From NCBI GenBank assembly GCA_040905475.1, contig JBBDRM010000142.1, positions 26,574 to 84,418 of the forward strand: 57,845 nt of DNA, read 5' to 3'. The notes beneath the pieces are model-generated. The model did not search any database. It was not told the DNA's origin and was given only the letters and a program-made list of their open reading frames with translations. This DNA comes from Actinomycetota bacterium (lineage in GTDB: Bacteria > Actinomycetota > AC-67). The translations under genes and the position numbers were made by a program. Positions 31,660 through 43,006 of the stretch are shown one piece after another (the stretch's first letter is position 1; each line of letters begins with the position of its first letter).

Positions 31660-33939
31660 ATGCCGAACGTCGGTCGCACGTTCAAGCGATTCCTGTTCGG
31701 CCGTCCCCTCGCCAGCGATCAGGCCGGCCACCAGCTCCTCCCCAAGCTGGTTGCCTTGCCGGTTTTCGCGTCGGACGCGCTGTCCTCGAACGCGTACGCC
31801 ACCGAGGAGATCATGCACGTGCTGATCCTGGCGGGGCCGATGGCCCTCGGCTGGTCGCTTCCCATCGCCCTGGCGGTGTCCGGTCTCATGCTCATCGTCG
31901 TGACGTCCTATCGCCAGACCGTCCGCGCCTACCCGCGCGGCGGCGGCTCCTACATCGTGACCAAAGACAACGTGGGCACGATCCCAAGCCTCGTCGCCGC
32001 CGCGTCCATCCAGCTCGCTTACGTGCTTACGGCGGCCGTGTCCATGGCCGCCGGCGCTTTCGCCGTCGCCTCGCTCGTCGAGCCGCTGAACGACCACCGC
32101 GTCGCCATGGCGTTGACGTTCCTCGCGGTGATCATGCTCATGAACCTGCGAGGAGCGAAGGAGTCGGGGACGCTGTTCGCGGCGCCGACCTATGCGTTCA
32201 TCACTTCGATCTTCGTCATGATCGGGATCGGCGTCTTTCGCTGCACGGTCGGGACGTGCCCGCGCGTCGCCGTCACCGGCGAGCACGCCGCAACGACACA
32301 GGCCGTCGGGCTTTTCCTGATCCTGAAGGCTTTCTCGTCCGGTGCCACCGCGCTCACGGGGGTCGAGGCGATCGCCGACGGCGTCGCCGCGTTCCGTGGA
32401 CGGAAGCCTTCGGAGCAGGCGGCGAATGCGGCCGCCACCCTTGCCATCCTCGCGGTGCTTTCTATCTCGATGTTCATCGGCATCACGTTCCTCGCCAACC
32501 AGATGCACGCGCGCCCGACCGGCGAGAAGTCCGTCGTGGCACAGGTCGCGAACGCAACCTTCGGCGGTGGCATCGGATTCGGCGCCGTTCAGATCACCAC
32601 CGCGTTGATCCTCATCCTTGCGGCGAACACCGCGTACCAGGACTTCCCGAGGCTATCTTCGATCCTGGCTCGAGACCGGTTCATGCCGAGGCAGTTCATC
32701 AACCGCGGCGACCGGCTGGTGTTCTCGAACGGGATCCTCATGCTTTCCGCGCTGGCCGCACTCCTGATCGTCATCTACGACGCCGACGTGACCCGGCTGA
32801 TCCCGCTTTACGTGGGGGGCGTCTTCGTGACGTTCACGCTCTCCCAGACCGGGATGGTGCTTCGCTGGCGGCGACTGCGGCCACCGGGATGGCGACGGCA
32901 GGCGGCGATGAACGCAGCCGGCGCGATCACGACCGGCATCGTCTGCATCGTGGTGATCTCTACCAAATTCACACAGGGCGCCTGGATCATGGTCGTCGTC
33001 GTCCCGCTGATCGTCATGCTCTTCCGCGGGATCAACCGCCACTACGCCTCCGTCGCGACCCAGCTACGTGCGGACGAGGTTCGGCTGCCGATGCCCACCG
33101 GCACACGCGCGGTCGTGCTCATCGGCGTGGTGGACGAGGCCGCGATGCGCGCGCTCGGCTACGCGCGCGCCCTGCGTCCGCTCGAGGTGCGAGCGCTCGT
33201 CGTCGCCGACTCATCGTCCGCCGCCGACGCCGCGAGAACGGAATGGGTCGCGCGGAGGCTCACCGTGCCCCTCGACGTGGTCGAGGACGACGACGACCAG
33301 ATCGAGGCGATCCGCCGGCACATCCGCGAGATCCGCCGAGGTGAAGATGAGTTCGTGACGCTCGTCATCCCCGAACGGCTCCATCTTCGCCGGTTCGGCC
33401 GTCTGCTTCGGCAGCGCCGCGAGCTCATGCTCAAGGCCGCCATGCTGTTCGAGCCGATGGTGGTCGTCACCGACGTGCCGAGCATCATCGAGGACAACGC
33501 TTCGTCGGCCGCGATCTCGGGTCCGATCGCACCGACTCGCAACGTGGCCATCGTGCTGGTCTCGGCCGTGCACAACGCGACGCTACGAGCCATCTCGTAC
33601 GCAAAGGCGATCCGACCGACCGAGCTACGAGCCGTCACGTTCAACGTCGAGGAGGAAGAGACCGAGAAGATGATGCGTGCTTGGGGCCAGGCGGCCGTCG
33701 ACATCCCGCTCGAGGTCGTCGATTCTCCCTATCGCGAAGTGACCGAGCCGCTCGTGAGGATGATCCGGCAGATCCGGGCTGCCGGCCCGGACACGGTCGT
33801 CACCGTCATCGTGCCCGAGTTCGTCGTGTCGAAGTGGTATCACCAGTTCTTGCACAATCAGACGGCGTTGTCGATCAAGCGCGTGATGCTCTTCGAGCCC
33901 GGCGTCGTGGTGACGAGCGTGCCGTATCACCTCATGTGA
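31660..33939 (+). CDS. kimA: KimA-family K+ permease, paralogue 1, with duplicated cytosolic domain
   Basis: An APC-superfamily permease of 759 residues that matches Bacillus KimA, a K+/H+ symporter inhibited by c-di-AMP. Shared motifs are [15 protein letters not shown] (Asp39 and Tyr46 equal KimA Asp36 and Tyr43), [45 protein letters not shown] and the terminal WYHQFLHNQ. About 12 TMs end near residue 465. Then come two tandem USP-like domains (about 481-610 and 627-759), where KimA has one. The KimA Asp117 position is Ala120. No ribosome binding site is evident and TAG immediately precedes the ATG, so the start is fixed and may be leaderless. It ends by overlapping kdpE by 8 bases. Confidence 0.9.
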
Positions 33940-34621
33940 CGGACTCTTCGGCCCAGCGATAGCCGAGACCGGGCTCGGTGAGGATCCAGCGAGGCCGCGA
34001 CGGCTCATCCTCGAGCTTCCTCCGGAGCTGGGCGACGTAGACCCGGACGTAGTGGCTCTCCCCCCCGTAGGCCCCGCCCCACACCTTCGACAAGAGCCAT
34101 CGGTGGGTGAGCAGCTTCCCCGGATTCCTGACGAGCGCCTCGAGCAGGTCGTACTCGGTCGGCGTCAGGTGCAGCGCCTCGCCGTCCTTGCGGACGAGCC
34201 GCTTGGCCAGGTCGATGTCGATCGAGCCGAAGGTCAGGGTCGCGGGCCCCGGGCTTGCCTCGGGGATGCGGCGGAGCGCCGCTCGGATCCGCGCGAGCAG
34301 CTCGTCCATCCCGAACGGCTTGGTGAGGTAGTCGTCGGCCCCGGCGTCGAGCGCGGCAACCTTGTCGTCCTGCGCGTCGCGTACCGACAGGACGATGATC
34401 GGCACCTGCGACCAGCCGCGGAGCCGTCGCGTCACCTCGACGCCGTCGATGCCGGGAAGACCCAGGTCCAGCACGATCACGTCGGCGGGGTTCGAGGCAT
34501 GACGCTCCAGCGCGGTCTCGCCGTTGCCGGCCGTGTCGACGTCGTAGCCCCGCGCGGAGAGCGCCACGCGCAAGGCCCGGGCGATCTGCGGCTCGTCGTC
34601 GACGACCAGCACCCGCGTCAC
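33932..34621 (-). CDS. kdpE: KdpE-like response regulator
   Basis: A 229-residue OmpR/KdpE-type regulator. The receiver domain has VLVVDDEPQIARAL, the phosphorylation Asp in VIVLDLGLPG (about residue 52) and the Lys in DDYLTKPF. The C-terminal winged helix (LTPTEYDLLEALVRNPGKLL) resembles KdpE closely. The GTG at 34621 overlaps the sensor stop as GTGA. Its 3' end overlaps the kimA paralogue 1 stop, convergent. The probable targets are the flanking K+ permease genes. Confidence 0.88.
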   Translation of the reverse strand: MTRVLVVDDEPQIARALRVALSARGYDVDTAGNGETALERHASNPADVIVLDLGLPGIDGVEVTRRLRGWSQVPIIVLSVRDAQDDKVAALDAGADDYLTKPFGMDELLARIRAALRRIPEASPGPATLTFGSIDIDLAKRLVRKDGEALHLTPTEYDLLEALVRNPGKLLTHRWLLSKVWGGAYGGESHYVRVYVAQLRRKLEDEPSRPRWILTEPGLGYRWAEESVT

Positions 34622-36042
34622 GTCGGCGTCCCCCCTGCGGCCGGGAGGCGGATCGCCACGGTCGCTCCGCCCCCTGGCGCTCCTTCGATCCAGATCTCCC
34701 CTCCGTTCGCCCGCACGAGCGCGCGTGCGACCGCGAGCCCGAGTCCCGTTCCGGCGGCCCGGCCGTCGCCGGCACGATAGAACTCGTCGAAGACCTTGTC
34801 CCTCGACTCGGGTTCGATGCCGGGACCTCGATCGCTGATCCGCACCTCGACCGAGCCATGCCATCGAGACGCGGTGACTTTGATCTCGGAACGCGCCGGG
34901 GCGAACTTCGTCGCGTTCTCCACGACGTTACGCAAGACCTGACCTACTTGGATGGGATCGACTTCCAGGGGCGGCACGTCCGGCCGCACGCTGATCGAGA
35001 GCGGGCGATCCGCCAGCGTCGAGCGCAACCCCGCCAGTACGTCCTCGAGTATCTCATCGAGGGAAACCACAACGCGCTCGGGCGCGAGAGCGCCCGAGCG
35101 GATCCGCGTGAGGTCGAGAAGGTTCGCAACCAGCCGCTCGAGCCGCTCCGTCTCCTCGAGCGCGGTGTTCAGGAGCTCGGTCGCATCCTCCGACGCCAAC
35201 GGCACCACGGGCCCGGATCCTCGCCCCGGGATCAGGGCGGTCACCGCAGCCTTTATCGAAGCGAGCGGCGTCCGGAAGTCGTGACTCACCGCGGAAAGGA
35301 TCGCTCGTCTGAGGCGGTTCGTCTCGATGCTCAGTCGTGCCTCGCGAGCCTCTCGCTCGAGGTCTCGCCGCTCGATCGCGGCGGCCGTCTGCCGGGCGAA
35401 GATCGCCGCGACACGATGCTCCGCCTCGCCGAGGGGCGATGAGCCCGGCTCGAGGAGCAACATGCCGAGCTCGCCGCGAGCGGCGGAAAGCGGGATCCGA
35501 ACTACGGCTCCGCCGCCCGACTCGCCGTCGGCGACCACCGTCGCGCCGTCCGCTCCGGCTACGTGCACCTCGCATCGTGCGAGTCCCAGCAGCCGCCGCA
35601 ACGCCGATGCGAGATCCGCCAGCGCCTCGTCGAGGTCGCCTTCGCCGAGCATGCGACTCGAGATCGCGTAAAGGCTGCGAGACTCCAGCTCACGGCGCTC
35701 GGCCCTCAAGCGCTGACTCCGCTCGAGCGCGACCAAGCCGCTCACGACGATCCCGACCGAGATGAACACGGCGAGCGCGATCAGGTCGTCGGTCTTGGCC
35801 ACCGAGAACGTCCTGCGGGGTGGGGTGAAGAAGAAGTTCAGGCCGAGGAAGCTGAGCACGGAGGCGACGATGCCGGGAACGAGCCCGGCGATGGCGGCCA
35901 CACCGAGTACCGCGAGGATGTAGGCGAGCGCCGCCGCGGTCGTGCGCTCCGCCCCGATCGCCAGCCCGAGTCCGGTAGCTGCCGCGGGCCCGAGCAGTGC
36001 GGCGGCGGCTCGCGCCGCGGAACCGGGATCGTAGCGCTTCAC
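34618..36042 (-). CDS. kdpD: KdpD-like sensor histidine kinase lacking the N-terminal KdpD domain
   Basis: A 474-residue kinase with the four-TM DUF4118 domain of KdpD (ALAYILAVLGVAAIAGLV ... GLNFFFTPPRRTFSV), a GAF-like segment (about 155-250), HisKA with SHDFRTPLASIKAAV and a HATPase (NVVENATKF, DRGPGIEP, GTGLGLAVARALV). The roughly 350-residue KdpD sensor and USP region before the TMs is missing. The GTG at 36042 is the only reasonable start after the preceding basic stretch. It precedes kdpE with a four-base overlap. It is divergent from the second kimA unit. Confidence 0.88.
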   Translation of the reverse strand: MKRYDPGSAARAAAALLGPAAATGLGLAIGAERTTAAALAYILAVLGVAAIAGLVPGIVASVLSFLGLNFFFTPPRRTFSVAKTDDLIALAVFISVGIVVSGLVALERSQRLRAERRELESRSLYAISSRMLGEGDLDEALADLASALRRLLGLARCEVHVAGADGATVVADGESGGGAVVRIPLSAARGELGMLLLEPGSSPLGEAEHRVAAIFARQTAAAIERRDLEREAREARLSIETNRLRRAILSAVSHDFRTPLASIKAAVTALIPGRGSGPVVPLASEDATELLNTALEETERLERLVANLLDLTRIRSGALAPERVVVSLDEILEDVLAGLRSTLADRPLSISVRPDVPPLEVDPIQVGQVLRNVVENATKFAPARSEIKVTASRWHGSVEVRISDRGPGIEPESRDKVFDEFYRAGDGRAAGTGLGLAVARALVRANGGEIWIEGAPGGGATVAIRLPAAGGTPT

Positions 36043-36188
36043 ACCTACAGGATGGGGTCGTCCTGTGGACGAAACAAGCGGAGCCCCGGCCCGGCGCCGA
36101 GGATTGACGATTTCTTTACACCCCTGCCCGGTTTCCTGACGGGTCGTTGACGGTCCTCGTCCGATGCTGTCATCGGAAGGAGGCCGCG

Positions 36189-36362
36189 ATGGCCGAGTTG
36201 GACAAGATAGTCGCAGCGGCGTTCCTCGCCGGAACGGCCGGCGTTGTTCTGGTGCGCGCACTGCGTGCCTGGACGCGATTCCGGCTCCAGGAACGCACCC
36301 TCCGGATCCTCACGAAGGGTTTGACCGAGCTGGAACGCCCGCGCGAGCGGCCTCGTACATGA
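36189..36362 (+). CDS. Small one-TM protein coupled to kimA paralogue 2
   Basis: A 57-residue protein: a short N-terminus, one hydrophobic segment (IVAAAFLAGTAGVVLV) and a basic, helical C-terminus (RTLRILTKGLTELERPRER). A strong AAGGAGG lies 6 bases upstream of the ATG. Its TGA overlaps the kimA paralogue 2 ATG as ATGA (36359-36362), so the two are translationally coupled. By analogy with KdpF it could be an accessory peptide of the transporter; this is inference. Confidence 0.65.
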   Translation: MAELDKIVAAAFLAGTAGVVLVRALRAWTRFRLQERTLRILTKGLTELERPRERPRT

Positions 36363-38683
36363 CGACGTCATCCGGGTCGGCGATCAAGAGGGCACTACTC
36401 GGGCGGCGACTCGCCACCGAAGAGGCAGGGCACCAGCTCCTTCCGAAGGTCCTCGCGTTGCCCGTATTCGCGTCCGACGCGTTGTCGTCCAACGCATACG
36501 CGACCGAAGAGATCCTCCTCGTGCTGATCACGGCGGGGACGGGCGCGCTCACGAGGTCGATCCCGATCGCGGCGGCGGTGGCCACGTTGATGATCATCGT
36601 GATCACGTCGTACCGGCAGACGGTGATGGCCTACCCGAAAGGCGGAGGCTCCTACATCGTCACCAAGGAGAACATCGGCGTCACCCCCGGCCTGATCGCC
36701 GCGGGCGCCCTGCTCACCGACTACATCCTGACCGTCGCGGTGAGCGTCGCCGCCGGGGCCTTCGCCGTCGCCTCGCTCATCCCCGGATTGCTGCACCATA
36801 GGGTCGCGCTCGCGCTCGGGTTCATCGCGTTCGTCACGATCATGAACCTGCGCGGCGTGAAGGAGTCGGGAACCTTGTTCGCCGTCCCGACCTACGCGTT
36901 CATCGGCTCGGTGCTTATGACGTTGATCGTCGGCGCCGGGCGATGTCTCGCCTCGGAGTGTCCGCAGGCAGAGATCGCGGAAGCGACCCGCGGCCTCGGC
37001 GATCAGGCGTTCCCGGTCGTGCACTCCCTGAGCCTCTTCGTCGTGCTGAAGGCGTTCTCCTCGGGATCCACGGCGCTCACCGGCGTCGAGGCGATAGCCG
37101 ACGGAGTGACCGCGTTCCGCCGGCCGCAAGCACGCAACGCTGCCAGGACGCTCGCGGTGCTGGGTGTAGTGGCGATCACGATGTTCATCGGGATCACGAT
37201 GTTCGCCAACCTCACGCACGTGCGGCCGCTAAACGCCGAGACCGCACATCGCCTCACGAAGCTGCTCGGCCACCCCGTCGAAGAGAAGTCGGTGCTCGCG
37301 CAGATCGGAGAAGCCGTGTTCGGAGGAGGGGTAGGTTTCGTCGCGCTCCAGATCACGACGGCGCTCGTGCTCGTGCTGGCCGCCAACACCGCCTACCAGG
37401 ACTTCCCCCGCCTCTCCTCCATCTTGGCGAAGGACCGGTTCATGCCCCGGCAGTTCATCAACCGCGGTGACCGGCTGGTGTTCTCGAACGGCGTCATCCT
37501 GCTCGCGGTCTTCGCGTCTGTTCTGGTGGTGATCTACGACGCCGAAGTGACCCGGCTCATACAGCTCTACGTCATCGGAGTGTTCACGAGCTTCACGCTG
37601 TCGCAGACCGGCATGGTGATCCGCTGGCGTCGGATGCGGCCGCCGGCGTGGAAACGGAAGGCAGCCGTCAACACCGTGGGCGCGATCACGACCGGCCTGG
37701 TGCTCATCGTCGTGGCGACCACGAAGTTCCTCGGCGGCGCATGGATCATCATCACCGCGGTGCCGTTTATCGTGATGCTGTTCAAGGCGATCCATCGCCA
37801 CTACCAGTCGGTCAAAGAGCAGCTCCGGGTTCTCGAGGGGCGCCCTCGGCAAGCGATCGGCACACGGGTCATCGTGCTGGTACCGCAGGTCGACGAAGCC
37901 GCGATGCGCGCGCTGGGGTACGCGCGAGCCCTTCGCCCCCTCGAGGTCCGGGCCTTGCACGTCGCGGAGAACGGCACCGCCGCGGCGGTGCGCGCGGCAT
38001 GGGCCGAGCGGCGGATCGCCGTGCCGCTCGAAGCGCTCGAGGCCGGGGGCGACCTCGCCGACGTCGTCCGCGAGCGGGTACGCGCTCTGCGGCAAAGCGA
38101 CGACGAGTACATCACCGTCGTCCTCCCCGAAAGGATCCACCGCAACGGACTCCAGCATTTCCTGCGTACACGCCGGGAGTTGATGCTCAAGGCCTCCCTG
38201 CTATTCGAGCCGCAGGTCGTGGTGACCGACGTGACGACGGTCGCCGACGGAGAGGGAAGATCGGGTCCGATCGCGCCCACGCGCAACGCGGCGATCGTGC
38301 TGGTGTCGGGGGTCCACAACGCAACCCTGCGAGCGCTCGGATACGCCCGGTCCATCCGGCCGACCGAGCTGCGCGCGGTCACATTCAACATCGACGACGA
38401 GGAAACCGACAAGATCATGCGTGAATGGTCGAGCGTCGCGGTGGACACGCCGCTCGAGGTGCTCGACTCTCCCTACCGCGAGGTGACGCAGCCGCTCGTC
38501 CGGCTCGTCCGGCAGATCCGGGCCGGCTCGTCCGACACGGTCGTCACGGTGATCCTGCCGGAGTTCGTCGTGTCGAAGTGGTACCACCAGTTCCTGCACA
38601 ACCAAACCGCGCTGGGGATCAAGGGCGCCCTGCTGTTCGAGCCGGGGGTCGTCGTGACGAGCGTGCCGTTCCACCTGCAGTAG
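36359..38683 (+). CDS. kimA: KimA-family K+ permease, paralogue 2, with duplicated cytosolic domain
   Basis: A 774-residue paralogue of the permease at 31660. It retains all the KimA ion-site motifs, including Asp40, Tyr47 and, unlike paralogue 1, the Asp121 in LTDYILTVAVS (KimA Asp117). About 12 TMs are followed by two tandem cytosolic domains from about 502 and 641 ([18 protein letters not shown] against [18 protein letters not shown]). The ATG at 36359 overlaps the small TM gene by four bases. The trkA pair follows 57 bases downstream on the same strand and is probably cotranscribed. Confidence 0.91.
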   Translation: MTTSSGSAIKRALLGRRLATEEAGHQLLPKVLALPVFASDALSSNAYATEEILLVLITAGTGALTRSIPIAAAVATLMIIVITSYRQTVMAYPKGGGSYIVTKENIGVTPGLIAAGALLTDYILTVAVSVAAGAFAVASLIPGLLHHRVALALGFIAFVTIMNLRGVKESGTLFAVPTYAFIGSVLMTLIVGAGRCLASECPQAEIAEATRGLGDQAFPVVHSLSLFVVLKAFSSGSTALTGVEAIADGVTAFRRPQARNAARTLAVLGVVAITMFIGITMFANLTHVRPLNAETAHRLTKLLGHPVEEKSVLAQIGEAVFGGGVGFVALQITTALVLVLAANTAYQDFPRLSSILAKDRFMPRQFINRGDRLVFSNGVILLAVFASVLVVIYDAEVTRLIQLYVIGVFTSFTLSQTGMVIRWRRMRPPAWKRKAAVNTVGAITTGLVLIVVATTKFLGGAWIIITAVPFIVMLFKAIHRHYQSVKEQLRVLEGRPRQAIGTRVIVLVPQVDEAAMRALGYARALRPLEVRALHVAENGTAAAVRAAWAERRIAVPLEALEAGGDLADVVRERVRALRQSDDEYITVVLPERIHRNGLQHFLRTRRELMLKASLLFEPQVVVTDVTTVADGEGRSGPIAPTRNAAIVLVSGVHNATLRALGYARSIRPTELRAVTFNIDDEETDKIMREWSSVAVDTPLEVLDSPYREVTQPLVRLVRQIRAGSSDTVVTVILPEFVVSKWYHQFLHNQTALGIKGALLFEPGVVVTSVPFHLQ

Positions 38684-38740
38684 GACGGTTGCCCGAGCAG
38701 GTTTCGCCGTCGCGTGCTCCGGAGTAAGGTTCCCGGCCGT

Positions 38741-39400
38741 ATGCACGTCGTCATCGCAGGCTGTGGACGGGTCGGTTCCGACCTCACCGTGTCGCTCTCG
38801 CGGCAGGGTCACACCGTGTCGGTCATCGACAAGAACCCCCACGCCTTCGAGCGCCTCCCTCCCGGCTTCGAGGGCCAGACCCTCGTCGGGATGGGGTTCG
38901 ACCGGGACACCCTCGAGGCGGCCGGGATCAAGGAGGCCGGCGCCTTCATCGCGGTGACCAACGGCGACAACTCCAACATCGTGTCGGCCCGGATCGCGCG
39001 CGAGCACTACAACGTCGACAAGGTCGTCGCGCGGATATACGACCCACGACGGGCGGAGATCTACCGGCGGATCGGCATCCCCACCGTCGCGACCGTCCAG
39101 TGGGCTTCCGCCGAGATCTACGACCAGGTCTTCCACGGCATCGAGCACACGGAGCTGGCGATCGGCGACGGCGACATGGTGATCCTCCGCCTCGAGATCC
39201 CCGGGGAGCTCGCCGGGACGCCGGTCTCGGCGCTCGGCTCGCCGGGCCGGGCGATGGTCGTCGCGGTCGACCGGATGGGCGGCGCGATCATCCCGACCGA
39301 CGACCTCACGTTCCAGCAAGGCGACGTCGCGCACGTGATCGTGCGGCGGGACGCGCTCGACGAGCTGCGTTCAAGACTGAAGAAGCAGGAGGACCACTGA
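38741..39400 (+). CDS. trkA: TrkA/CeoB-type NAD-binding K+ regulatory protein, first of pair
   Basis: A 219-residue RCK protein with a Rossmann motif (VIAGCGRVGSDLTVSL, residues 4-19) ending in Asp for NAD binding (VIDKNP), and a C-terminal TrkA_C domain (ELAIGDGDMVILRLEIP). Such proteins gate K+ channels or carriers in response to NAD(H) or c-di-AMP. It overlaps the next gene as TGATG. The membrane subunit TrkH or KtrB is not in the window. Confidence 0.93.
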   Translation: MHVVIAGCGRVGSDLTVSLSRQGHTVSVIDKNPHAFERLPPGFEGQTLVGMGFDRDTLEAAGIKEAGAFIAVTNGDNSNIVSARIAREHYNVDKVVARIYDPRRAEIYRRIGIPTVATVQWASAEIYDQVFHGIEHTELAIGDGDMVILRLEIPGELAGTPVSALGSPGRAMVVAVDRMGGAIIPTDDLTFQQGDVAHVIVRRDALDELRSRLKKQEDH

Positions 39401-40086
39401 TGCGAGTCGTCGTCGCGGGCGCTGGGAACGTCGGCCGTTTCCTCGCCGCCGACCTCACGACGCGCGGACACGACGTCACCGTCATCGAGCAATCGAGCGA
39501 CGTCTACCAGAAGGCGAAGGCAACCGTGGACGCCAACTGGATCCACGGCGACGCGTGCGAGCCGTGGGTGCTCGACAAGGCGGACCTGGCCCGCGCCGAC
39601 GTGCTCGTCGCGGCGACCGGCGACGACGAGGACAACCTCGTCATCTCGCTGCTCGCGAAGCAGGAGTTCGCCGTCCCGCGTGTCGTCGCGCGCGTGAACC
39701 ATCCGAAGAACCGGTGGCTGTTCACCGAGTCGTGGGGCGTGGACATCTCGATGAGCCCGCCGCACATCCTCACCTCGCTGGTCGAGGAGGCGGTCACGGT
39801 CGGGGGACTCGTCGAGCTGCTCAGCCTCGAGCATGGCAAGGTCCGCCTCGTAGAGCTGACGATGCCACCGGAGTCGCCGCTGGCCGGGAAACACGTGTTC
39901 GACCTGCGACTCCCGCACGACACGCAACTGATCGCCGTCGTACGTGACGGCCACGTGATCATCCCCGAGCTCGAGACACCGCTCGTCGCAGGCGACGAGA
40001 TCCTCGCCATCACCTCGCAAGACTCCGAGGAAGGGCTCCGAGCGGCGCTGACCGGCGGGCCGCCTCCCAACGGTTCGAACCCTTAG
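39400..40086 (+). CDS. trkA: TrkA/CeoC-type NAD-binding K+ regulatory protein, second of pair
   Basis: A 228-residue RCK protein with VVAGAGNVGRFLAADL and a following Glu (VIEQS), a conserved ATGDDEDNLVISLLAKQEF, and a TrkA_C domain. The ATG overlaps the previous stop by one base. In mycobacteria such a ceoB-ceoC pair lies next to an APC permease gene, so the link with KimA-type permeases looks general. It ends in a 4-base convergent overlap with the OB-fold gene. Confidence 0.93.
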   Translation: MRVVVAGAGNVGRFLAADLTTRGHDVTVIEQSSDVYQKAKATVDANWIHGDACEPWVLDKADLARADVLVAATGDDEDNLVISLLAKQEFAVPRVVARVNHPKNRWLFTESWGVDISMSPPHILTSLVEEAVTVGGLVELLSLEHGKVRLVELTMPPESPLAGKHVFDLRLPHDTQLIAVVRDGHVIIPELETPLVAGDEILAITSQDSEEGLRAALTGGPPPNGSNP

Positions 40087-40466
40087 TGGGGCTCGGGGCT
40101 CCCCGCGAACTCGTACCGCGGATTCATGACCTGCATCGCCGCCGGCTCGCCGCCGAGGCGCCCCTCCAGGATGAGACGGCACCCGAGCGTGAGACCGGGG
40201 AGCATCCGTCTGCCGAGCCACACGGCGGTGACGGTGCCCGACCCGTCGGTCACCACCGCCTCGATCGCCGGGACCCCTTCGCGCGGCCGCACGCGTATCC
40301 CCTCGACGACCCCGGCCACACGCGCTACCGTCCGCGGCTTCGCCCCGGCGATCGGCGTCGCGCCCGGGATGCTCGCGGCCCACTCCCGGATCGACTCGGC
40401 TCTGCGCTCCCCCTCGTCTTGAGCGAAGCGGCCGAATGCCTTCTTGAAAAGCCCCATGGTCGTCAT
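40083..40466 (-). CDS. OB-fold nucleic acid-binding-like protein
   Basis: A 127-residue protein with a short N-terminal helix and an OB-fold (ARVAGVVEGIRVRPREG, VEAVVTDGSGTVTAVWLG, LEGRLGG). It resembles small conserved actinobacterial proteins encoded beside ceoBC. The Met at 40457 (MGLFKKAF) is an alternative start. Nucleic acid binding is inferred from the fold only. Confidence 0.75.
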   Translation of the reverse strand: MTTMGLFKKAFGRFAQDEGERRAESIREWAASIPGATPIAGAKPRTVARVAGVVEGIRVRPREGVPAIEAVVTDGSGTVTAVWLGRRMLPGLTLGCRLILEGRLGGEPAAMQVMNPRYEFAGSPEPH

Positions 40467-40551: not shown

Positions 40552-42846
40552 CTACTTAGCCGTCGCCGCGGCAGCCTCCGCCTCGCTCGGCACGAGCTTC
40601 TCGACCTTCTGCCGCTTCGAGTACGTGATCGCCAGCCCGAGGATGATGACCCCCACGATCGGCACGACGATCCGCAGACCGTCGTTGTCGCTGTTGGTCA
40701 CGATCATCGGCACGATGAGCAGCGCCACCAGGTTCATGACCTTGATCAGCGGGTTGAGCGCCGGACCCGCGGTGTCCTTGAACGGGTCGCCGACCGTGTC
40801 GCCGATGACGGTCGCCTTGTGCGACTCGGAGCCCTTCCCGCCGTAGAGGCCTTCCTCCACGAGCTTCTTGGCGTTGTCCCACGCGCCTCCGGCGTTGGAG
40901 AGCATCACGGCGAGCAGCTGCCCCGACAGGATGACGCCGGCCAGGTAGGCACCGAGCGCCTCGGCCTGCAACGCGAACCCGACGACGATCGGCGTGATCA
41001 CCGCGAGCAGGCCCGGCGTCATCAGCTCCCGGAGAGACGTCTTGGTGCAGATGTCCACGACGGCCGCGTAATCGGGTTTCTCGGTGTAATCCATGATGCC
41101 GGGGTGGTCGCGGAACTGCTTGCGCACCTCGACGACGACCTGACTGGCTGCGCGCCCGACGGCACGGATCGCGAGGGACGCGAACAGGAAGGCAACCGCG
41201 CCTCCGATCAGCAGCCCGACGAGCACGTCCGGCTGATCGATGCGGATGCCTCCCGGCCATGCATCGTTCTCGATCAAGATCTCGCGGAACGAACCGAACA
41301 GCGATGTGGCGGCGATGACCGCCGTCGCGATGGCCATCCCCTTGGTGATCGCCTTGGTCGAGTTCCCCACGGCGTCGAGGCCGGTCAGGATCTCGGCCGG
41401 CCGGCCCTCGAACTCTCCCGACATCTCCGCGATCCCCTGGGCGTTGTCCGAGATCGGGCCGTAGGTATCCATCGACACGATCACGCCGACGGTGGTGAGC
41501 ATCCCCATGCCGGTCAGCGAGATGAAGTACAGACGCTCGGAAATGGTGTCGCCCAACGCGAAAGCGCCGATGATCGCGCCGGCGACCGCCAGGAGCGCCC
41601 ACACGGTGGACTCCATCCCGACCGAGAAACCGGACAGGATGGTGGTGGCCGGGCCGGTCTGCGATGCGTCGGCGATCTCTTGCACCGGCTTGCGCGTGGT
41701 CGAGGTGTAGTGCTCGGTGAGGACCTGGATCACGCTCGACAGGAGCAAGCCGATGACGACCGCCCAGAACACCCTCAGGTCGCCGTTCGGATGCGCGTCG
41801 GTCTTGACGTAGAGCTTGGCCACGACGAACGTCGCGCCCGCGCTCAGCAACGCCGAGGCGAAGAACCCCCGGTTGATCGCCTTCATCCCGTGCTCCTCCT
41901 CGGAGCGCGGGCGCACCATGTAGATGCCGATGATCGAGGTGATGACGCCGATCGCGCGGACGAACAGCGGGAACATGACGCCGAGGATCGCGAACTTGGT
42001 GCCGTCGGGACCCGACGTCGTGAACGCGGCGGCCCCGAGGATGATCGACGCGACCAGCGTCACCTCATACGACTCGAAGAGATCGGCCGCCATCCCTGCG
42101 CAGTCGCCGACGTTGTCGCCGACGTTGTCGGCGATCGTCGCAGCGTTGCGAGGGTCGTCCTCGGGGATGCCCTTCTCGACCTTGCCGACCAGGTCGGCGC
42201 CGACGTCTGCCGCCTTGGTGAAGATGCCTCCGCCGACCCGCATGAACATGGCGAGAAGCGCGCCGCCAAAGCCGAACCCGACCAGAACCTGCGCCGCGTC
42301 GGCCTTGTAGATGAGGAGCACGACCGTAGCGCCCAGCAGCCCGAGCCCGACGGTGAACATCCCGGCGACGCCGCCGGCACGGAACGCGATGGTGAGTGCG
42401 CGGCGCAGTCCCGACTCGCGGGCTGCGTTGGCGACGCGGACGTTCGCGCGGACGGCCAGCGACATGCCGATGAACCCGGTCAGCGCACTGAAGCCGGCAC
42501 CGATGATGAACGCGACCGATCGACCGAACCGCAGCGCGAACTCGGAGTGCTCCGCATCATTCGGAACCGGCAGAACGAAGAACAGGAAGATGAAAAGCAG
42601 CCCGATGAAGACGCCCACGGTGCGGAACTGGCGGTTGAGGTAGGCGCTCGCACCCTCCTGGATCGCCTTCGCGATCTCGATCATCTTGGGCGTGCCCTCG
42701 GGGTGTTTGAGAACGCCCTTCACCAAGACGTAGGCCACGGCGAGCGCGAGGAACGAGATGCCGAGGATCACCCAAAGTGCGTTGTTCTCGAGCGTTCGGA
42801 AGGTGGCTTCGATCTTGCCGCCTTCCTGAGCAAGCACGACCGGCAT
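40552..42846 (-). CDS. hppA: K+-independent membrane-bound proton-translocating pyrophosphatase
   Basis: A 764-residue polytopic H+-PPase that pumps protons using pyrophosphate. It has the acidic substrate signatures DVGADLVGKVEKGIPEDDPRN and NVGDNVGDCAGMAADLFE. The diagnostic segment near residue 490 reads GNSTKAITKG with Lys where K+-dependent enzymes have Ala, so it should work without K+. The ATG at 42846 follows AGGAGGTCAT. It stands alone on the minus strand next to the K+ cluster, and its proton pumping would energise KimA-type K+/H+ symport. Confidence 0.95.
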   Translation of the reverse strand: MPVVLAQEGGKIEATFRTLENNALWVILGISFLALAVAYVLVKGVLKHPEGTPKMIEIAKAIQEGASAYLNRQFRTVGVFIGLLFIFLFFVLPVPNDAEHSEFALRFGRSVAFIIGAGFSALTGFIGMSLAVRANVRVANAARESGLRRALTIAFRAGGVAGMFTVGLGLLGATVVLLIYKADAAQVLVGFGFGGALLAMFMRVGGGIFTKAADVGADLVGKVEKGIPEDDPRNAATIADNVGDNVGDCAGMAADLFESYEVTLVASIILGAAAFTTSGPDGTKFAILGVMFPLFVRAIGVITSIIGIYMVRPRSEEEHGMKAINRGFFASALLSAGATFVVAKLYVKTDAHPNGDLRVFWAVVIGLLLSSVIQVLTEHYTSTTRKPVQEIADASQTGPATTILSGFSVGMESTVWALLAVAGAIIGAFALGDTISERLYFISLTGMGMLTTVGVIVSMDTYGPISDNAQGIAEMSGEFEGRPAEILTGLDAVGNSTKAITKGMAIATAVIAATSLFGSFREILIENDAWPGGIRIDQPDVLVGLLIGGAVAFLFASLAIRAVGRAASQVVVEVRKQFRDHPGIMDYTEKPDYAAVVDICTKTSLRELMTPGLLAVITPIVVGFALQAEALGAYLAGVILSGQLLAVMLSNAGGAWDNAKKLVEEGLYGGKGSESHKATVIGDTVGDPFKDTAGPALNPLIKVMNLVALLIVPMIVTNSDNDGLRIVVPIVGVIILGLAITYSKRQKVEKLVPSEAEAAAATAK

Positions 42847-43006
42847 ATGACCTCCTGCGAAGAGAAAGGGCCCGTAAACCTCGGAAAGGTGCCGGAGGAT
42901 GCTATCCCGCGTCCTTGGGGCTGGCAAAGCGGATGGGAACCCGTTCGCACGCGCGCTGACCTGGGTGCTTGCCGGTCGCGAACCCCACCGTTAGGCTCCC
43001 GCGCAC

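Follow-up and report, generated by a model that had tools for sequence, protein, structure and literature searches.

A putative KimA-TrkA potassium uptake module with a candidate KdpE-type operator in an Actinomycetota genome

Described potassium systems and the locus

The closest described systems to the locus reported here are KimA (YdaO) of Bacillus subtilis, a K+/H+ symporter of the KUP family, the KdpDE-kdpFABC systems of Escherichia coli and Mycobacterium smegmatis, and the Trk and Ktr systems (TrkH-TrkA, KtrB-KtrA). TrkA is a peripheral subunit of the RCK type, and RCK rings are known to gate channels and exchangers of the CPA type. The locus lies in a stretch of 57,845 nucleotides from contig JBBDRM010000142.1 of an Actinomycetota bacterium (assembly GCA_040905475.1), hereafter called the window. 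Two genes for KimA-type permeases, kimA1 and kimA2, flank a KdpDE-like pair; kimA2 is coupled to a gene for a small transmembrane (TM) protein, and a coupled pair of trkA genes follows (Table 1). A first-pass annotation had listed this gene content with its coordinates, and both were confirmed. We consider it probable, at about 0.68, that these genes form the main K+ uptake module of the organism, in which KimA2 is controlled by an RCK ring of TrkA1 and TrkA2 and a KdpE switch acts at kimA2.

The two permeases share with B. subtilis KimA the TM core, the K+-site and proton-coupling residues and the c-di-AMP pocket in the last cytosolic domain. They differ from it by an inserted degenerate cytosolic domain (CD1), by the linkage to a TrkA pair, KdpDE and a small TM protein, and by A117 in KimA1. 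With the KdpDE systems of E. coli and M. smegmatis the locus has in common the relatedness of the response regulator, its DNA-contact residues and a direct-repeat operator of 6-5-6 architecture, whereas here no KdpA was found, the KdpD lacks KdpD_N and Usp, and two boxes stand 32 bp apart at kimA2. Unlike in Trk and Ktr, no TrkH or KtrB was found in the genome, and the candidate membrane partner is a LeuT-fold symporter. The RCK-regulated K+/H+ antiporters KhtTU and CpeABC likewise combine an RCK-type protein, a secondary transporter under its control and a small partner open reading frame, but they are CPA-type exporters, while KimA is an APC-type importer. A two-subunit RCK pair from overlapping genes is also found in Thermotoga maritima, TM1088A/B (PMC4380455).

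Linkage of KimA permeases and TrkA pairs

The source assembly (G000; sampled genomes and loci are given by G and L numbers) comprised 4.24 Mb in 173 contigs, with 97% completeness and 4.4% contamination. The absence of kdpFABC, trkH and ktrB noted in the first-pass annotation was matched by searches of the assembly: TrkH/KtrB (PF02386) was not found by a search that was positive in 11 of 14 controls, neither was KdpA (PF03814), and Kup (PF02705) was not found either. This leaves the two KimA copies as the only dedicated K+ importers identified in the assembly, other K+ channels not having been searched for.

For co-occurrence, 179 actinobacterial genomes were each searched for KimA, TrkA2 and TrkH. 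KimA was present in 68 and TrkH in 105 of them, and the two were anti-correlated, with 15 genomes containing both, 53 only KimA, 90 only TrkH and 21 neither (Fisher p=5e-15, uncorrected for phylogeny). A kimA gene stood within 5 kb of 48 of the 56 best TrkA2 matches; the remaining matches were on other contigs, 80 kb off, or in a genome with no KimA match. TrkH occurred in 9 of the 49 genomes with linked KimA and TrkA and in 96 of the 130 others (p=1.6e-11; counted by hand and uncorrected for phylogeny). Among named genomes, TrkA was situated within 10 kb at 51 of 80 KimA loci, including many from Streptomyces, Frankia, Nonomuraea and Saccharothrix, and at none of the KimA loci titled Nitrospira, Chloroflexi, Rokubacteria, Acidobacteria or Cyanobacteria. 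In the neighbourhoods read, kimA, trkA1, trkA2 and an OB-fold gene clustered in many families with changing orientation; since these regions were picked for linkage, its frequency is measured only by the counts from the 179 genomes and the 80 loci. The arrangement was widely conserved in relatives, and of the two findings that the first-pass annotation had named as speaking against its reading, a trkH or ktrB elsewhere in the genome and an unconserved arrangement, neither was obtained.

Phylogenies of the RCK proteins followed the membrane partner. All 44 KimA-linked rows of the TrkA2 tree were parted from every TrkH-linked row by one branch (support 99), and four changes of the KimA label were needed, compared to 28 in shuffles. 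The KimA clade of the TrkA1 tree consisted of the 44 KimA-linked rows and one more (support 93). Matches of the window proteins to NCBIfam TrkA models fell short of the cut-offs, which were curated for tandem TrkA. Three genomes, G157, G176 and G166, each contained one KimA-linked and one TrkH-linked pair, and in each of them the two pairs fell with their respective partner types, evidence against the split being a pure species-tree effect. In G166 the K+-site residues were absent from the permease adjoining the KimA-linked pair.

Linkage of this kind could in principle be inherited synteny, the absence of TrkH being a lineage effect and the two genes having no functional bond. KimA-linked and TrkH-linked genomes do partly follow families, and the anti-correlation tests are uncorrected for phylogeny. 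We nevertheless hold this to be improbable, as adjacency persists through repeated changes in orientation and spacing (co-directional, divergent, with the OB-fold gene or a two-component system inserted) and, where a genome has both transporters, it retains two TrkA pairs sorted by partner.

A less improbable, though still unlikely, explanation is that control of KimA by KdpE is real while the TrkA pair regulates another transporter, e.g., a channel, a CPA exchanger or a P-type ATPase, and was placed here by clustering of K+ genes. Channels and CPA exchangers are known targets of RCK proteins, and the KimA of B. subtilis needs no TrkA to function. Moreover, TrkA1-TrkA2 pairs adjoin P2-type cation ATPases as a third partner class (L125, L126, L140, L143, L146, L148-L150, L152 and L154, with L141, L142 and L151 placed in the class unchecked), and in G041 the pair adjoins kdp genes. 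Against this stand the recurrence of KimA as membrane neighbour of the same TrkA clade across many families, the separation of KimA-linked from TrkH-linked TrkAs even within one genome, and the presence of only two TrkA2-type matches in the source genome. The G041 cluster (L145, contig C227) contains kdpA/kdpB, a DUF4118 kinase and a KdpE-like response regulator, followed by the trkA1-trkA2 pair.

Identity of the permeases is a separate matter. Both copies matched Pfam AA_permease_2, and the sole match of either in the PDB sequence set was B. subtilis KimA 6s3k (E about 1e-130). Residues D36, Y43, T121, S125, T230, E233 and Y377 were present in both copies, as was the c-di-AMP pocket, R337 with H579-N580-Q581; numbering refers to the B. 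subtilis protein and the residue roles are those given in PMC6994465 and PMC10284832. The Pfam label would fit a permease for amino acids or another APC substrate instead of K+, and none of the Streptomyces venezuelae candidates has been studied (PMC10117811). It is very improbable that the permeases are of this kind, given that both copies retain D36, Y43 and E233, all the K+/H+ residues found indispensable in the B. subtilis protein, as well as the affinity residue Y377, that KimA is their only PDB relative and that a KdpE-type operator is found at kimA2.

In both proteins the extra domain CD1 precedes the canonical CD2 (CD1 against CD2, E=4e-24 in KimA2) and is without the HNQ pocket. Tandem cytosolic domains occurred in KimA of the source and related lineages, and a single domain in Streptomyces and mycobacterial copies. 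In a KimA subgroup (L084, L085, L086, L100, L104, L115), often the paralogue adjoining trkA, HDR replaces the HNQ of the pocket and Glu is found at position 457. At position 117 KimA1 has Ala and KimA2 Asp. The B. subtilis variant D117A still transports and is impaired in growth only at high K+, which was read as loss of trans-inhibition (PMC6994465); because of A117, KimA1 is predicted to be the less self-limiting copy, lacking trans-inhibition by K+.

The KdpE-type operator and the remaining features

The closest named structure to the response regulator was E. coli KdpE, and the contact residues R193, R200 and T215 of the latter were all present when mapped by hand on the alignment (PMC3264566). 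The first-pass annotation had called both partners truncated; this applies to the kinase, as it has neither KdpD_N nor Usp, and not to the response regulator. Full-length KdpD of other loci carries KdpD_N.

A search for common k-mers in the promoters yielded only GC-rich words. The direct repeats were spotted by eye and then tested on whole genomes: the boxes TTGACGATTTCTTTACA at 36104 and CTGACGGGTCGTTGACG at 36136 are direct repeats with an 11-bp internal period. Their architecture is that of the E. coli KdpE operator, TTTATA-N5-TTTACA (PMC3264566), and box 1 was identical at 14 of 17 positions to the reverse complement of the footprinted M. smegmatis KdpE site (PMC5401905), the differences all being transitions. 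The double box occurred once in the source genome at up to three mismatches, and its reversed control not at all. Across the 179 genomes, 24 matches at one mismatch were obtained compared to one for the control, six of the double-box matches being circular as they come from loci from which the pattern was derived. All seven exact matches were situated at kimA, trkA or kdp promoters. In many relatives, and at one Rokubacteria locus, pairs with the same 32-bp spacing separate a KdpD-like kinase from kimA or trkA1; none was found at L083, L085a, L090 or L164. Among the double boxes independent of the derivation, those in G052, G061, G094, G095 and G096 precede kdpA by about 280-380 bp, while G037 and G038 have one ahead of kimA and G172 has one next to a KdpE-like response regulator. 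G095 has a full-length KdpD with kdpFABC as well as a truncated KdpD with kimA/trkA, and a double box at each.

The first-pass annotation had proposed KdpDE control of both permeases. For kimA2 the operator between the kinase and this gene lends the proposal sequence support, and for kimA1, with no double box upstream, the proposal was not upheld. The part consisting of truncated KdpD and operator is confined to some lineages, while the TrkA-KimA part is found in many families of the phylum.

Two further observations concern the double box and KdpE-like genes elsewhere. At L244 (G146 C1:3318051) and L261 (G096 C7:242600) a double box with one mismatch precedes a PE-PPE pair by 144 bp at a distance of 6-8 kb from kdpA, making the pair a candidate for KdpE control. 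At L183, on a contig titled Chloroflexi, kimA, a truncated-type KdpD, a KdpE-like response regulator and a second kimA stand in a row without trkA.

No homologue of the 57-aa protein was obtained by tblastn. Searching by position and TM motif revealed a single-TM open reading frame in the same slot, between divergent kinase and kimA, in four other genomes (loci L090, L163, L164 and L165). These share a sequence like TM-R-x-x-x-W-x-x-[FW]-R, and a search for the motif in 39,272 short open frames gave five matches, four of them in the kinase-kimA slot. The protein may have an accessory role like that of KdpF or KhtS.

The trkA1 and trkA2 genes overlap by ATGA. Between kimA2 and trkA1 the gap is 57 bp, in which the terminator scan listed nothing, and a sigma-70 promoter scan at the locus found nothing. 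The membrane pyrophosphatase next to the OB-fold gene carries GNSTKA, the Lys form, which we take to be K+-independent.

Table 1. Features of the locus (positions in the window)
Feature	Position	Strand	Description
kimA1	31660..33939	+	759 aa KimA-type permease, two cytosolic domains; Ala at B. subtilis position 117
KdpE-like response regulator	33932..34621	-	GTG start; 4 bp overlap with kinase stop
Truncated KdpD-like sensor kinase	34618..36042	-	DUF4118-HisKA-HATPase; no KdpD_N, no Usp
KdpE-type operator (candidate)	36104..36152	+	two TTNACR-N5-TTNACR boxes 32 bp apart, between divergent kinase and 57-aa/kimA2 genes
57-aa single-TM protein	36189..36362	+	translationally coupled to kimA2 (ATGA overlap)
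kimA2	36359..38683	+	774 aa KimA-type permease; D36/Y43/D117/T121/S125/T230/E233/Y377 intact; c-di-AMP pocket R337 + HNQT
trkA1	38741..39400	+	RCK protein, TM1088A/CeoB type; TrkA_N+TrkA_C
trkA2	39400..40086	+	RCK protein, TM1088B/CeoC type; TrkA_N+TrkA_C
OB-fold protein	40083..40466	-	recurrent neighbour of trkA pair; Pfam match slightly under its cut-off
Membrane pyrophosphatase (H_PPase)	40552..42927	-	neighbour in relatives too

Proposed control of KimA and the mycobacterial counterpart

In the module we propose, KimA2 is predicted to act as a K+/H+ symporter. A two-subunit ring of TrkA1 and TrkA2, probably nucleotide-sensing, would control it instead of the usual TrkH/KtrB channel; binding of the ring to KimA, its ligand and the direction of control are what we infer. 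The truncated KdpD would sense low K+ and phosphorylate KdpE, which may then bind the double box and switch on the 57-aa gene, kimA2 and, by presumed read-through, trkA1-trkA2, as well as the divergent kdpD-kdpE. The kimA1 gene would be a duplicate outside this switch. That the TrkA pair regulates KimA, as the first-pass annotation had suggested, agrees with linkage, phylogeny and the swap of transporters; a physical interaction of the two is presumed from the linkage.

Several observations weigh against this module. Firstly, gene order varies, most lineages having kimA and trkA in divergent orientation, so co-transcription is not universal. KimA without linked TrkA occurs in several genomes; as other TrkA pairs adjoin P-type ATPases, the pair may not be limited to a single target. 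No natural fusions of KimA with TrkA or with a histidine kinase were found among 8,396 long open frames. Secondly, the KdpE layer is not fixed even within the family, since in the close relatives G002 and G003 the regions read show kimA-trkA1-trkA2 but no truncated KdpDE, and G002 is without the double box at up to one mismatch (G003 was outside that sample). Finally, no diadenylate cyclase was found in the 97%-complete assembly, either by domain or with the protein of a relative.

The last point bears on the control of KimA by c-di-AMP, which had also been assumed for this organism. The pocket residues are kept, and the family relatives G001-G003 have the diadenylate cyclase DisA, but as no cyclase domain was found in the source assembly such control is uncertain here. 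Its lack there may be a loss or an assembly gap. The c-di-AMP signature of RCK_C was uninformative, the best match differing at 3-4 positions in both TrkAs of the window and, in most cases, at 3-5 across all partner classes. In S. venezuelae the RCK protein Vnz_27460, whose locus number places it beside a KimA-like gene, shows no binding of c-di-AMP (PMC10117811).

The first-pass annotation also pointed to a mycobacterial neighbourhood of ceoBC and an APC permease, and such a neighbourhood was seen in two genomes. G146 and G096 contain PE and PPE genes, from which they were taken as Mycobacterium, and in both kimA is divergent from trkA1-trkA2. The published ceoB primer (PMC4553272) matched trkA1 exactly. 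CeoB/CeoC of M. tuberculosis appears in the literature as the Trk system, a low-affinity K+ transporter consisting of two TrkA proteins (PMC4553272, PMC13163235). The CeoBC papers searched for a membrane partner name none, neither Rv2690c nor TrkH, and KimA is also unmentioned where sought (in PMC4553272, only the term TrkH was). Transposon insertions in ceoB and the adjacent Rv2690c of M. tuberculosis share enhanced survival in rifampicin (PMC12216072). As at our locus, kimA stands beside trkA1-trkA2, but unlike kimA2 of the source the mycobacterial gene is divergent and encodes one cytosolic domain; it was read in the PE/PPE-bearing genomes, not in M. tuberculosis itself. The linkage thereby names a candidate membrane partner for CeoB/CeoC, the adjoining KimA-type permease, which in M. 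tuberculosis is Rv2690c. That an RCK ring directly controls the LeuT-fold symporter KimA across Actinomycetota, and that mycobacterial CeoB/CeoC therefore regulate Rv2690c, seems to us somewhat better supported than its opposite.

In the non-subscription literature searched, no statement of a KimA-TrkA or KdpE-KimA wiring in Actinomycetota was found. The locus would represent an apparently undescribed, recurrent rewiring of known parts, the KdpDE regulon being redirected to a KimA-TrkA module. If this is true, a further transporter fold comes under RCK control, kimA and trkA join kdpFABC in the KdpE regulon, and the K+ homeostasis of Streptomyces and mycobacteria is opened to experimental tests.

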